DNA of 64,000 nucleotides, taken from the NCBI RefSeq assembly GCF_024746835.1, contig NZ_CP080531.1, forward strand, positions 4,484,001-4,548,000, given 5' to 3'. Shown here in pieces: positions 2,665 to 26,449 of the stretch. Both the position numbers and the translations under genes were made by a program. Within the stretch, counting starts at the first letter, position 1. Every line of letters begins with the position of its first letter. Source of the stretch: Mesorhizobium sp. AR02 (lineage in GTDB: Bacteria; Pseudomonadota; Alphaproteobacteria; Rhizobiales; Rhizobiaceae). Below the pieces are notes generated by a model. The model saw only the letters and a program-made list of their open reading frames with translations, did not search any database and was not told the origin of the DNA.

Positions 2665-3744
2665 ATGGACCAGTCGAGCGCGCAGACCCGCATCAGCGAT
2701 GCGGCAATCAGGTCGGCGATCGAGCGCCTGCGCGCCGAGCACGGCGAATTCGAGATCGAAACCGGCGCTGCCGACCGATGGGAGCTTCGCCTGTATTACG
2801 GGTCTTTGAGCGCCACGCTCGAAGGCGACGCCATGCTGATCCGCGTCGCGGCAACAGACGAAACCTGCCTCTCCTACATGAAGATGACGGTCGCCGGCCA
2901 TGTCGCCCAGCATCTCGGCACGGCCAGTGGATTGCGCTGGCAAGGCGACGGCAGCGATGCCGGCACGCCGGTCTTCTTCCGCGAGATCACGGTGGTGTCG
3001 TCGACGCGGATTTCGCCGCATATGCAGCGCCTGCGCTTCGCCGGCACGGACCTCGGCCGCTTCACCCATGGCGGCCTCCACATGCGGCTGCTGTTGCCGC
3101 CACGTGGCCGGCGGCCAGTCTGGCCCTCCATGGGCACTGACGGCCTACTTGTCTGGCCCTCGGGCGAGGATGCGCTCACCATACGGGTCTACACGATCCG
3201 GGCGATCGATTCGGCAAGCGGCTGGCTCGATGTCGATTTCGTGCTGCACCCCGGCCAGGATACGCCGGCCGCCACCTTTGCGCAGAACGCCCAGGCGGGA
3301 GACGTGATCGGGATGATCGGACCCGGTGGCGGCGATGCACCGAAAGCGCAGACCCTGTTTCTCATCGGTGACGATACCGCGCTGCCGGCCATTGGCAGGA
3401 TCCTCGAGCAGCCGCCGCCGTCAACTCAAGTGGAGGCGCTCATCGAGGTCGATGGTCCTGACGACCGGATCGCGCTGCCGCAAGGCGAGACCATCGCCAT
3501 CAGCTGGCTCTACCGGCATGGCCGCGACGCTGGCACCGCCAGTCTGCTGCCGGCAGCCCTGCGCGGGCGCAGCCACGCCGCACTTGCCGACGGCCTTTTC
3601 GTCTGGGCCGGATGCGAATTCACCGACTTCCGCGAGATCCGCAGGATCGTGCGCAGGGAATGGGGCCTGCCACGCGACAGGCATCTGGTCACCGCCTATT
3701 GGCGCCGCGGCGCGCAGGGCGAAAATGGGGGTGGCGAGGAGTAG
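2665..3744 (+). CDS. Siderophore-interacting protein with N-terminal DUF2218
   Basis: This protein of about 359 residues has two parts. The first ~90 residues match the DUF2218 pattern (RAEHGEFEIETGAADRWEL, later YMKMTVAGHVAQHLG). The rest is a siderophore-interacting FAD-binding domain followed by its SIP C-terminal domain, ending HLVTAYWRRG. Such flavoproteins reduce ferric siderophores in the cytoplasm using NAD(P)H. The frame is open back to an ATG at 2545, but the ATG at 2665 is preferred because GAAGGA lies eight bases upstream and DUF2218 begins there. It lies about 150 bases after the MFS gene. Confidence 0.85.
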   Translation: MDQSSAQTRISDAAIRSAIERLRAEHGEFEIETGAADRWELRLYYGSLSATLEGDAMLIRVAATDETCLSYMKMTVAGHVAQHLGTASGLRWQGDGSDAGTPVFFREITVVSSTRISPHMQRLRFAGTDLGRFTHGGLHMRLLLPPRGRRPVWPSMGTDGLLVWPSGEDALTIRVYTIRAIDSASGWLDVDFVLHPGQDTPAATFAQNAQAGDVIGMIGPGGGDAPKAQTLFLIGDDTALPAIGRILEQPPPSTQVEALIEVDGPDDRIALPQGETIAISWLYRHGRDAGTASLLPAALRGRSHAALADGLFVWAGCEFTDFREIRRIVRREWGLPRDRHLVTAYWRRGAQGENGGGEE

Positions 3745-3765
3745 GGCTCCGATGGGGAAAAGCCG

Positions 3766-4863
3766 TCAGTCCCGGATGCTTCTCGCCACCAGCCGAGCAA
3801 CGCTCGGGCCGACAAGCAGCACGATCAGGAAGCGCGCCGATTGCAGCGCCATGACGAAGGAGATGTCGACGTTCTGCGCCGCGGCGGCGATGATGGCGAC
3901 GCTGTCCATGCCGCCGGGGCTGGTCGCCAGATAGGCGGTCAGCGGATCTATGCCGAGCAGGTGGCTGATCAGGAAGGCGAGCCCGCCGCAAAAGGCGATC
4001 AGCGCCACGATCGAGGCGATGATCTGCGGCAGCGCGCGTGTCGCATGGCGCAGGATCGGCCTGGTGAAGTTCAGCCCGATCGACCAGCCGACCATGGCGT
4101 AGCTGACCGCCAGCAGCCATGGCGGCAACTGCATCTCGATGCCAAGGCCGAGATGGATGACGGCGCCGAAGATGAAGGTACCGAGGAAGAAGGGCGAGGG
4201 CAGCCGGCACAGCTTGCCCGCCAGGCCGCCGACCAGCGCGATGCCTGACGTGGCGGCGAAGGCTTGGGCATCGATCGGCGGAAACCAGATGATCGGCGTG
4301 ATTTCGATGCCCGACGTGTCGACCCACATCTTGGCGACGAGAGCCGCCGTCATCGAGACGAAGATGACGCGCAGATACTGCATGAAGGCGACGAGGCGCT
4401 GATCGGCGCCGAACGCGCCAGCCATCAGCACCATGGCGGTGGCCGCACCTGGCGAGGAGCCCCAGACGGCGGTGGTGCCGGGCAGGATGCGCCAGCGGCT
4501 GGTCAGCCAGCCGAGCAGGCTGGAGGCTGCGACTGTCGCAATCACCACGCCCAGGAACAGCGGCCATTCCTGGTAGAAGACGGGAAAGATGTCGGCCGAG
4601 ATCGACGCGAGGCAGCCGACAATGGCCTGGGCGGAGCCGAACAGCAGGCGCGGCACCCGCACCGTAGCGCCATTGGTGCCGGCGATGATCGCCGCCAGCA
4701 TCGGCCCGATCAGCAGCGCCGCCGGCAGAGCGGCGAGTTCGAGCGCGCCGGCAAACAGGGCGGAAATGGTGAGCAGGACCAGCCATTGCCAAGGCTTGCC
4801 CATCCGCGCCATGCGCTCGGTGGCGGGCTGGTCAGGGGATGGCTGCTGGGCCGAGGAATCCAT
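3766..4863 (-). CDS. AbrB-family membrane protein (putative transporter)
   Basis: This 365-residue polytopic membrane protein carries the internal duplication typical of the AbrB membrane family (PF05145, formerly called putative ammonia monooxygenase). Each half has a Pro/Gly-rich hairpin such as LPAALLIGPMLAA, and the middle contains LPGTTAVWGSSPGAATAMVLMA. Members are about 340-380 residues long and their substrates are poorly defined. The name is unrelated to the AbrB DNA-binding fold. It converges on the siderophore-interacting gene and is divergent from the parDE pair. Confidence 0.8.
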   Translation of the reverse strand: MDSSAQQPSPDQPATERMARMGKPWQWLVLLTISALFAGALELAALPAALLIGPMLAAIIAGTNGATVRVPRLLFGSAQAIVGCLASISADIFPVFYQEWPLFLGVVIATVAASSLLGWLTSRWRILPGTTAVWGSSPGAATAMVLMAGAFGADQRLVAFMQYLRVIFVSMTAALVAKMWVDTSGIEITPIIWFPPIDAQAFAATSGIALVGGLAGKLCRLPSPFFLGTFIFGAVIHLGLGIEMQLPPWLLAVSYAMVGWSIGLNFTRPILRHATRALPQIIASIVALIAFCGGLAFLISHLLGIDPLTAYLATSPGGMDSVAIIAAAAQNVDISFVMALQSARFLIVLLVGPSVARLVARSIRD

Positions 4864-25084: not shown

Positions 25085-25088
25085 TTTT

Positions 25089-25136
25089 CCTTCTCCCCGT
25101 TCACGGGGAGAAGGTGCCCGAAGGGCGGATGAGGGG
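25089..25136. repeat. RIME-type palindromic repeat directly before a start codon
   Basis: Arms CCTTCTCCCCGT / ACGGGGAGAAGG (12 bases, two-base loop) are followed by a small stem CCCgaaGGG and CGGATGAGGGG. This is the usual rhizobial intergenic mosaic pattern, here five bases from the GTG at 25084. A further copy with the same outer string is at 41573-41621. Confidence 0.75.
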
Positions 25137-25145
25137 CGCGGCTCT

Positions 25146-25203
25146 CCCTTCTCCCCTTGTGGGAGAAGGTGGATCGGCGCGTAGCGCCGAGACGGTTGAG
25201 GGG
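25146..25203. repeat. RIME-type repeat, left copy flanking the IS element
   Basis: A 26-base segment (25146-25171) with the inner palindrome CTTCTCCC / GGGAGAAG is followed by the stem GGCGCgtaGCGCC and TTGAGGGG. The same 26 bases occur in reverse complement at 26410-26435 on the other side of the IS. Confidence 0.7.
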
Positions 25204-25249
25204 TGCGTGCCGGAGCGCCGTCGGCGTCAAGCTGGAACACCCCTTGTAT

Positions 25250-25437
25250 CTGCACGGAGGAGACTTTGTGCGATGGAAGCGACTGAGCCTCGAACCGGAC
25301 GGCCATCCGATTCGAGGCTTGGCGAAGTCGCCCGACACCCCTGCGGCTACAACCGTGGATGAGCCTGGGATCTTCGCCTTCGTCACGCACGACCGAATAG
25401 TCGCTTGGCTCCAATCGCACGCACAAGGCAGGTTACC
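25250..25437 (+). ncRNA. Putative bridge RNA of the IS110 element (ends approximate)
   Basis: The non-coding left end can be read as an IS621-like bridge RNA. A 5' hairpin has nine-base arms (25286-25294 and 25311-25319). A loop closed by GGCGAAG/CTTCGCC (25321-25327, 25372-25378) contains ACACCCCT (25335-25342), identical to the left target, and GGATGAG (25357-25363), complementary to the right target CTCATCC. Further on, ATAGTCGCT (25397-25405) equals the last nine bases of the element's right end including the core. ACAAG (25423-25427) is complementary to CTTGT at the left end. These are the expected target and donor guides in the expected order. Exact RNA ends are not visible. Confidence 0.8.
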
Positions 25438-26373
25438 GTGAACACGACCCTCTGTGGAATAGATATTTCGAAAGACTGGCTCGATGCCCATATCGAGCCG
25501 ATGGGAGCGGCAAACCGCTTCGCCAACGATGCGGCAGGCATCGCCGATCTGGCCGCCTGGTGTCAGAACCATGCTGTCGAACTCGTCGTCATGGAGGCCA
25601 GTGGCGGCTACGAACGGTTGGCCTTCTTGCTGTTGTGGGAGATGGGGCAACCCTGCGGCATGGCCAATGCGAGGAGCGTTCGCTACTTCGCCGAGGCAAT
25701 GGGTTTCCTGGAGAAGACCGACGGGATCGATGCCGCCATGATTGCCCGTTATGGTGCCGTCAAGCGGCTCAAGCCGACGCCGCCGCCGAGCGCGGCCCAG
25801 CAGCGGCTCAAGGCGCTGGTTGCGCGGCTTTCCCAAGTGGGAGGTGACCTCACCATTCAAAAGCAGCGCAAGAGCACTGCCGATGCCGAAACCATCGCCA
25901 GCCTTGATGAGGTGATCGCGCTGCTTGCGCGCCAAAGCCGCAGGCTCGAGGGTGAGATCGCCACGCTCATCGATGACGATCCGCTGTGGGCATGCCTCGA
26001 CCGGGCCTTCCGCTCGCTCAAGGGTGTTGCCTCTCGCACCGTGGCGCGGCTGATGGCGCAGTTGCCCGAGATCGGCATCCTCTCCAACAAGGCCATCGCC
26101 AAGCTGGCCGGTCTGGCGCCGATCGCCAATGACAGCGGCAAGCGCAGCGGTCGAAGACCAGTGCGCGGTGGTCGTGCGGGGCCGCGCGGCGTCCTCTTCC
26201 TCGTCGCCAGCATCGTTGCCAAATATGATCCGCATCTGGCAGCTTTCAAGCAACGGTTGCAGACCGCCGGAAAGGAGAAAATGGTCATCCGCATTGCGCT
26301 CGCCCGCAAGCTGCTCGTCATTCTCAACGCAAAAGCACGCGACGCGCGTAACGAATTCGCAAATGCAACTTGA
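25438..26373 (+). CDS. IS110-family transposase (DEDD)
   Basis: This 311-residue protein is read from a GTG at 25438, with AGG upstream; it begins VNTTLCGIDISKDWLDAH. The RuvC-like DEDD residues are D9 (CGIDISK), E53 (VVMEASGGYE), D95 and D98 (KTDGIDAAMIARY). A coiled-coil middle is followed by the C-terminal transposase domain (LKGVASRTVARLMAQLPEIG, then LAGLAPIANDSGKRSGRR), where the catalytic Ser of the family is expected. The frame is intact and full length for a short IS110 member, so the enzyme may be active. Confidence 0.93.
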   Translation: MNTTLCGIDISKDWLDAHIEPMGAANRFANDAAGIADLAAWCQNHAVELVVMEASGGYERLAFLLLWEMGQPCGMANARSVRYFAEAMGFLEKTDGIDAAMIARYGAVKRLKPTPPPSAAQQRLKALVARLSQVGGDLTIQKQRKSTADAETIASLDEVIALLARQSRRLEGEIATLIDDDPLWACLDRAFRSLKGVASRTVARLMAQLPEIGILSNKAIAKLAGLAPIANDSGKRSGRRPVRGGRAGPRGVLFLVASIVAKYDPHLAAFKQRLQTAGKEKMVIRIALARKLLVILNAKARDARNEFANAT

Positions 26374-26390
26374 CACCTCAGATAGTCGCT

Positions 26391-26436
26391 CATCCGTCGC
26401 CTTCGGCGACACCTTCTCCCACAAGGGGAGAAGGGA
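26391..26436. repeat. RIME-type repeat interrupted by the IS (right part)
   Basis: CATCCG, a small stem GTCGCCttcGGCGAC, and the palindrome CTTCTCCC/GGGAGAAG continue the repeat whose first half (up to ACACCCCT) lies left of the IS at 25237-25244. It ends 14 bases before the stop codon end of the AAA+ gene. Confidence 0.75.
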
Positions 26437-26449
26437 AGGCTGGCGCGGC

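Follow-up and report, generated by a model that had tools for sequence, protein, structure and literature searches.

What directs a bacterial insertion sequence to its place in the chromosome? The question is raised by an element in a stretch of 64,000 nucleotides of the Mesorhizobium sp. AR02 genome (the window), in which the region upstream of a recombinase gene carries, in short pieces, the letters of the insertion site and of the element's own ends. The initial annotation read these pieces as the guides of a bridge RNA, and the element as an RNA-guided recombinase system. At the level of sequence, the strongest support for this reading is that guides and targets change jointly; the protein, the architecture of the predicted RNA and an empty site in a relative support it as well. 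With a probability of about 0.95, the element belongs to the IS110 group of insertion sequences and moves in circular form by bridge-RNA-guided recombination of the IS621 type.

The element and its recombinase

The complete element is 1,148 bp long with both CT cores (Table 1). Relatives with differing flanks fix its ends, as does the related genome G025, in which the same gene junction has an empty site. Two copies, identical over 1,150 bases, are found in the 8.9 Mb genome, and the nearest named copies belong to the genus Mesorhizobium. The left end is the longer one, with 195 bases before the GTG start at 25438 and 17 bases after the stop. The non-coding RNA region thus lies upstream of the gene, a feature of the IS110 group that is unlike IS1111.

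The reading frame of the recombinase is intact from the GTG at 25438 to the TGA at 26373. A longer frame from a TTG at 25405 starts within the RNA region, and the alignment with IS621 begins just past the GTG. Two Pfam models, PF01548 and PF02371, match the protein at 71.2 and 48.3 bits, each exceeding its Pfam cut-off, and so does the NCBIfam model NF033542, 'IS110 family RNA-guided transposase' (170.1 bits, cut-off 140). At E values up to 0.001, its only matches among PDB sequences are IS621 (5.7e-27) and ISCro4 (2.5e-25). When the protein is aligned with IS621 (8wt6) and ISCro4 (9t56), five residues, D9, E53, D95, D98 and S233 in the numbering of the translation, fall on the catalytic residues of the IS621 structure. 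Homology to the IS621 protein is distant, at 98 bits over 290 residues. Of its catalytic residues, D102 and S241 are named in the description of IS621 (PMC11208158). The recombinase (25438-26370) also matches weakly the NCBIfam model of the TIGR-Tas RNA-guided endonuclease, at 25.6 bits for a cut-off of 100.

Table 1. Features of the element and its insertion site (positions in the window)
Feature	Position	Strand	Evidence or remark
IS110-group insertion sequence, CT core at each end	25243..26390	+	relatives with different flanks; empty site in G025; second identical copy
Left target ACACCC with core CT	25237..25244	+	letters; uninterrupted target ACACCCCTCATCC in L064
Core CT with right target CATCC	26389..26395	+	letters
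TATCTG, candidate -10 of circle-junction promoter	25247..25252	+	spacing of 17 bases to TTGACA when the ends are joined
Predicted bridge RNA	25259..25441	+	5' end inferred from candidate junction promoter, 3' end from predicted donor-loop stem
5' hairpin of predicted bridge RNA	25286..25319	+	8/14 pairs with changes on both sides
Target-binding loop: stem GGCGAAG/CTTCGCC, left guide, small hairpin, right guide	25321..25378	+	folds, two-sided changes
Left target guide ACACCCCT	25335..25342	+	8/8 with target; joint change in relatives
Right target guide GGATGAG	25357..25363	+	7/7 with target; joint change in relatives
Target-loop handshake base C	25364	+	could pair with G before donor core after exchange; 25/25
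Donor-binding loop, stem TCACG/CGTGA and GACC/GGTT; 3' strand includes GTG start	25383..25441	+	predicted fold
Left donor guide ATAGTCGCT	25397..25405	+	9/9 with right end 26382-26390
Right donor guide GCA-CGC-ACAAG	25417..25427	+	8/11, discontiguous with left end CTTGT-ATC-TGC
Donor-loop handshake base G	25428	+	could pair with C before target core after exchange; 25/25
DEDD recombinase, 311 aa, GTG start; D9, E53, D95, D98, S233	25438..26373	+	Pfam, NCBIfam, IS621/ISCro4 alignment
TTGACA, candidate -35 of circle-junction promoter	26370..26375	+	25/25 insertions

Insertion site and empty site

Both copies in the genome sit at the exact 13-base target ACACCC-CT-CATCC, within a palindromic intergenic repeat that we take to be the rhizobial RIME-type repeat. 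Their left flanks are identical over 60 bases and their right flanks over 4 bases beyond the compared stretch. The exact target occurs at five further sites in the genome, all in the same repeat when read by eye, vs none for the reversed pattern; with at most one mismatch allowed, the counts are 18 vs 1. Exact or near-exact sites often form facing pairs about 40-65 bases apart, and once 104 bases apart. In the window, the insertion site lies within a cluster of palindromic intergenic repeats (25085-25242 and 26395-26440) between two long minus-strand reading frames.

The search for the empty site of the first copy found its right flank in 52 of 61 genomes, and the loci of 11 relatives were fetched. 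The insertion side is readable in six of these (L059, L060, L061, L063, L064 and L066). Of the six, L064 (from G025) alone carries the exact target; there the uninterrupted sequence GGAACACCCCTCATCCGT lies between the same two genes and represents the empty site sought. In L060 a related repeat contains GCCCCTCATCC, and such a repeat is absent from the stretch read at the insertion side in L059, L061, L063 and L066. For the second copy, an exact empty target was not found in 280 bases from each of six relatives (of 40) that match one flank; L073 has the near-match ACACCTATCATCC at this locus. The target is made clear by the two insertions at one exact 13-base sequence and by a relative that carries the empty site.

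Guides that match the target and the element ends

The letters and coordinates reported for the guides by the initial annotation are all right. The left target guide ACACCCCT (25335-25342) is equal to the left target with its core (25237-25244), and GGATGAG (25357-25363) is the reverse complement of CTCATCC (26389-26395). The left donor guide ATAGTCGCT (25397-25405) is equal to the right element end (26382-26390), and ACAAG (25423-25427) is the reverse complement of CTTGT (25243-25247). Each of the four includes the CT core, and they follow one another as left target, right target, left donor and right donor guide, matching the target and the joined ends.

To measure the strength of these matches, the element's first 195 bases were put through 40,000 dinucleotide shuffles. 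A match of the 8-mer occurs in 0.3% of the shuffles, of the 7-mer in 2.2%, of the 9-mer in 0.02% and of the 5-mer in 12%; the 8-mer followed by the 7-mer, that is, the left and then the right target guide, occurs in 1 of 40,000. By these frequencies, three of the four matches are each unlikely to arise by chance, and the five-base right donor guide is weak by itself.

Guides and targets change together

The guides and flanks were read in 25 complete insertions: two in the genome of the window, eight in Mesorhizobium, Rhizobium or alphaproteobacterial contigs, and 15 in the same-genus relatives G004, G028 and G033. Left out of this sample were L032 (missed by the end pattern), L077 (found later), L052 (a duplicate of L012), L007 (right end lost), the right-end-only copies without their guides (L014-L023 and L027), the fragments L024, L033-L037 and L041, and the more distant homologues L025 and L026.

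The 25 insertions contain 13 distinct combinations of guide and target. These are Watson-Crick paired at 167 of 195 positions, vs a mean of 139.9 (sd 6.2) when guides and targets are permuted. Permutations as good as the observed pairing number 2 in 200,000, a count that overstates independence and is not a clean probability, because the insertions are related and come mainly from three lineages. The covariation of guide and target in aligned relatives, which had been proposed as a check of the bridge RNA, is borne out; on the donor side, covariation is seen in a compensatory change of the right donor guide.

The lineages differ in a consistent manner. The clade of the window has the guides ACACCCCT/GGATGAG and is found mostly where CCCCT is followed by CATCC. 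Clade 2 (G004, G028 and G033) has TACCACCT/GGGAGAG, with TACCCCCT in G028, and is found where CACCT is followed by CTCCC. A third guide type, CCCTCCCT/GAATGAG, is carried by the Rhizobium copy L010, at CCATCCCT followed by CATTC. The sites of clades 1 and 2 are, by eye, about 30 bases apart in one repeat type.

The right target guide is the tighter of the two. It is Watson-Crick paired at all seven positions in 23 of the 25 insertions, the others having one G-T wobble (L011) or one mismatch (L013). Outside the core, the 13 combinations are Watson-Crick paired at 63 of 65 positions for the right guide vs 53 of 78 for the looser left guide, and in clade 2 the two outer positions of the left guide are never so paired. 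In a scan of each RNA region with the left target of that insertion, the guide is the single best match in 20 of the 25 insertions; the best match falls elsewhere in L012 and L030 and is tied in L013, L031 and L048. L012 and L013 match at 5/8 positions each, and the left guide of L012 has CC in place of the CT core. In these two Rhizobium copies the left guide stretch is one base longer (guide region upstream of 3000).

Copies that keep the guides of the window at unrelated targets would speak against the initial annotation. Seven copies with these guides are readable on at least the left side (L003, L004, L005, L006, L007, L008 and L009). The six with both ends fit, matching at 6-8 of 8 positions on the left and 7/7 on the right; among them, L006 lies outside the repeat and has two left mismatches. 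L007 (element from about 2840 to 3930) does not fit: it carries the guides of the window, its left target mismatches at 4/8 positions and its right end is deleted. It remains an unexplained exception to the guide reading.

Some copies outside the sample were also read. The right guide matches at 7/7 in L032 and also in L077, an insertion in a plasmid record whose left guide matches at 5/8, both counts for L077 being made by eye. The right-end-only copies read CTCATCC (L018-L023), CTCATTC (L014-L016), CTCATCG (L017) or CTCATTG (L027). A wider family search in 394 genomes (E up to 1e-90, with at most five candidates scored in each genome) matched two: the genome of the window and one with L052, which is the L012 insertion. 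The plasmid search (E up to 1e-60) matched two records, that of L077 and one that covers 55% of the query.

Donor guides and the joined ends

The left donor guide equals the right end at 9/9 positions in 17 of the 25 insertions; in the other eight, which are the copies of G004 and G028, one position is mismatched. The right donor guide extends beyond the five bases first reported: GCA-NNN-ACAAG (25417-25427) lies opposite CTTGT-ATC-TGC of the left end. In clade 2 the RNA has GTA opposite TAC of the left end, and in the clade of the window GCA opposite TGC, which is consistent in 25/25. The pairing is thus kept through changes in both the RNA and the element end. Discontiguous pairing of the right donor guide is also described for IS621 (PMC11208160). 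Under the handshake rule of IS621, strand exchange brings the base just after a right guide into pairing with the other DNA at its position 7 (PMC11208158). Here the post-exchange pairing is possible in both loops in 25/25 insertions and the pre-exchange pairing in 0/25, with bases that hardly vary.

Across the joined ends, TTGACA is separated by 17 bases from TATCT[GA] in 25/25 insertions. The -10 of this candidate promoter agrees with the sigma-70 consensus, used here for scoring, at only 3/6 positions. The candidate -35 (26370-26375) overlaps the stop codon of the recombinase (TGA, 26371-26373). A junction promoter has been described for IS621 (PMC11208160) and for ISEc21 (PMC11187229). If a circle is formed, its junction is predicted to be GATAGTCG-CT-TGTATCTG.

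Structure of the predicted bridge RNA

Upstream of the gene, a 5' hairpin, a target loop and a donor loop follow one another as in IS621. The RNA region (25252-25441) has a predicted folding energy of -79.3 kcal/mol, and 1 of 200 shuffles folds as well; for the target loop alone, 10 of 200 do. The hairpin that had been noted before the guides has changes on both sides at 8 of its 14 pairs among 12 sequences, and the target-loop stem, a perfect seven-base stem as reported (GGCGAAG 25321-25327 with CTTCGCC 25372-25378), at 1 of 7. The covariation score of the 12 sequences is 0.355 vs 0.125 in shuffles, with slid controls at or below 0.120, and cells with two-sided changes number 36 vs 11.7. The count of pairs with two-sided changes is not outstanding (70 of 500 shuffles as high), nor is the count of further pair types (468 of 500). 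The covariance-model library Rfam gave no family for the bridge RNA region: there is no match in the window at the gathering score, nor in 25200-25500 at E up to 1.

The donor-loop stem is given as a prediction only, because the stability of the loop folded alone is no better than that of shuffles (173 of 200 at least as good), and because the stem is seen in local folds, whole-RNA folds pairing the region otherwise. The GTG start lies within CGTGA (25437-25441), the predicted partner of TCACG (25383-25387) in this stem. Since the start codon would be part of the stem, folding of the guide RNA and translation of the recombinase may exclude each other.

A model of insertion and its alternatives

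By analogy with IS621, it is possible to describe how the element would move, from transcription and circle formation to protein-RNA binding and catalysis. Joining of the ends would place TTGACA of the right end and TATCTG of the left end 17 bases apart, creating a promoter from which the left end would be transcribed. The transcript would then fold into the 5' hairpin, the target loop and the donor loop. In the target loop, ACACCCCT would pair with ACACCC-CT-CATCC on its bottom strand and GGATGAG on its top strand, and in the donor loop ATAGTCGCT and GCA-NNN-ACAAG would pair with the joined ends. Two recombinase dimers would exchange strands at the CT core by means of the RuvC-type DEDD residues and the serine. 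The element would thus be inserted without duplication of target bases beyond the shared core, into a target that is part of the palindromic intergenic repeat.

It could be argued that the recombinase alone picks the palindromic repeat, and that the guide-like stretches are captured remnants of flanking targets or chance matches. REP-type repeats are indeed also targeted by families other than IS110, namely IS3, IS4, IS256 and IS5 (PMC1525189), and five bases of right donor guide, found in 12% of shuffles, say little. Captured remnants would, however, hardly account for three guide types (GGATGAG, GAATGAG and GGGAGAG) that change with the right target while the donor ends stay nearly fixed, for the compensatory change between right donor guide and element end, or for target guides that lie, in the order of IS621, in the loop of a conserved and covarying structure. 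Selection of the site by the protein alone is therefore very improbable. A degenerate IS110 element that is no longer active and keeps a fossil guide RNA is somewhat easier to imagine, as only two copies are found in 8.9 Mb and related copies, L007 and L033 among them, are truncated or broken. Such decay is nevertheless unlikely in view of the intact frame with its catalytic residues, the identity of the two copies over 1,150 bases, and the exact matches of the target guides and the left donor guide.

Bridge-RNA-guided recombination leads to a more tentative suggestion. One recombinase clade, spanning about 73-100% identity to the protein of the window, has seven types of target guide and near-constant donor guides. 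Clade 1 is found at ACACCCCT followed by CATCCG, and clade 2 about 30 bases inward, at CCACCT followed by CTCCCCC, which is either a different palindromic intergenic repeat or a different position in a repeat of the same type. We consider it possible, at rather less than even odds, that the element has been reprogrammed naturally in pursuit of the repeats of its hosts, the target loop being rewritten several times and the donor loop kept nearly fixed, and that the same RNA serves either as guide or as message, because the GTG of the recombinase falls within the predicted donor-loop stem. If the guide reading is true, placing the guides of clade 2 at 25335-25363 should lead to a preference for CCACCTCTCCC over ACACCCCTCATCC.

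Comparison with known systems

The element makes the programme of a bridge RNA readable from sequence in a rhizobial IS110 element, and its clade offers a compact natural series in which to study how guides are rewritten. The recombinase and its guide sets could serve as further tools for DNA writing, the principle of which was published in 2024. Among the papers searched, none treats a bridge RNA in rhizobial IS110 elements, though such work may be in print; published surveys of thousands of IS110 elements may include this one.

As described for IS621 of E. coli (PMC11208160, PMC11208158), the likeness extends to a DEDD and serine recombinase, a left end that encodes the (here predicted) RNA, its 5' hairpin, a target loop made of stem, left guide, small hairpin and right guide, a predicted donor loop, four CT-containing guides, a discontiguous right donor guide, handshake position 7, a candidate promoter across the joined ends and a palindromic repeat as target. 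IS621 differs in the letters of its guides and in its target. The start codon in the predicted donor-loop stem is a possible further difference.

ISEc21, also of the IS110 type, is described as having an upstream non-coding region that gives a seekRNA, with an abundant short form of 74 nt, a junction promoter and insertion without target duplication (PMC11187229). Its relative ISMch6 has been redirected naturally through changes of its guides (PMC11187229). In contrast to the window element, ISEc21 is described as targeting no intergenic repeat but a conserved part of the transposase genes of the IS3 family (PMC11187229). Closer in this respect, by description, are ISRm19, ISPpu9, ISPpu10 and ISPa11, IS110-family elements in palindromic intergenic repeats, the first of them from a rhizobium, Sinorhizobium meliloti (PMC1525189). 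The transposase of ISPpu9 is reported to be regulated by small RNAs (PMC8450116). Covariation of guide, target and donor is known across thousands of IS110 elements (PMC11208160). This covariation, the natural redirection of an ISEc21 relative and the REP targets of IS110 elements mean that the kind of the element is already known. As its proposed mechanism is shared with IS621 and ISEc21, and IS110 elements in REP-type targets are familiar, it is well supported from sequence comparison that the window element is an IS110-group element of the IS621-type bridge-RNA kind, a new example of a kind already known.
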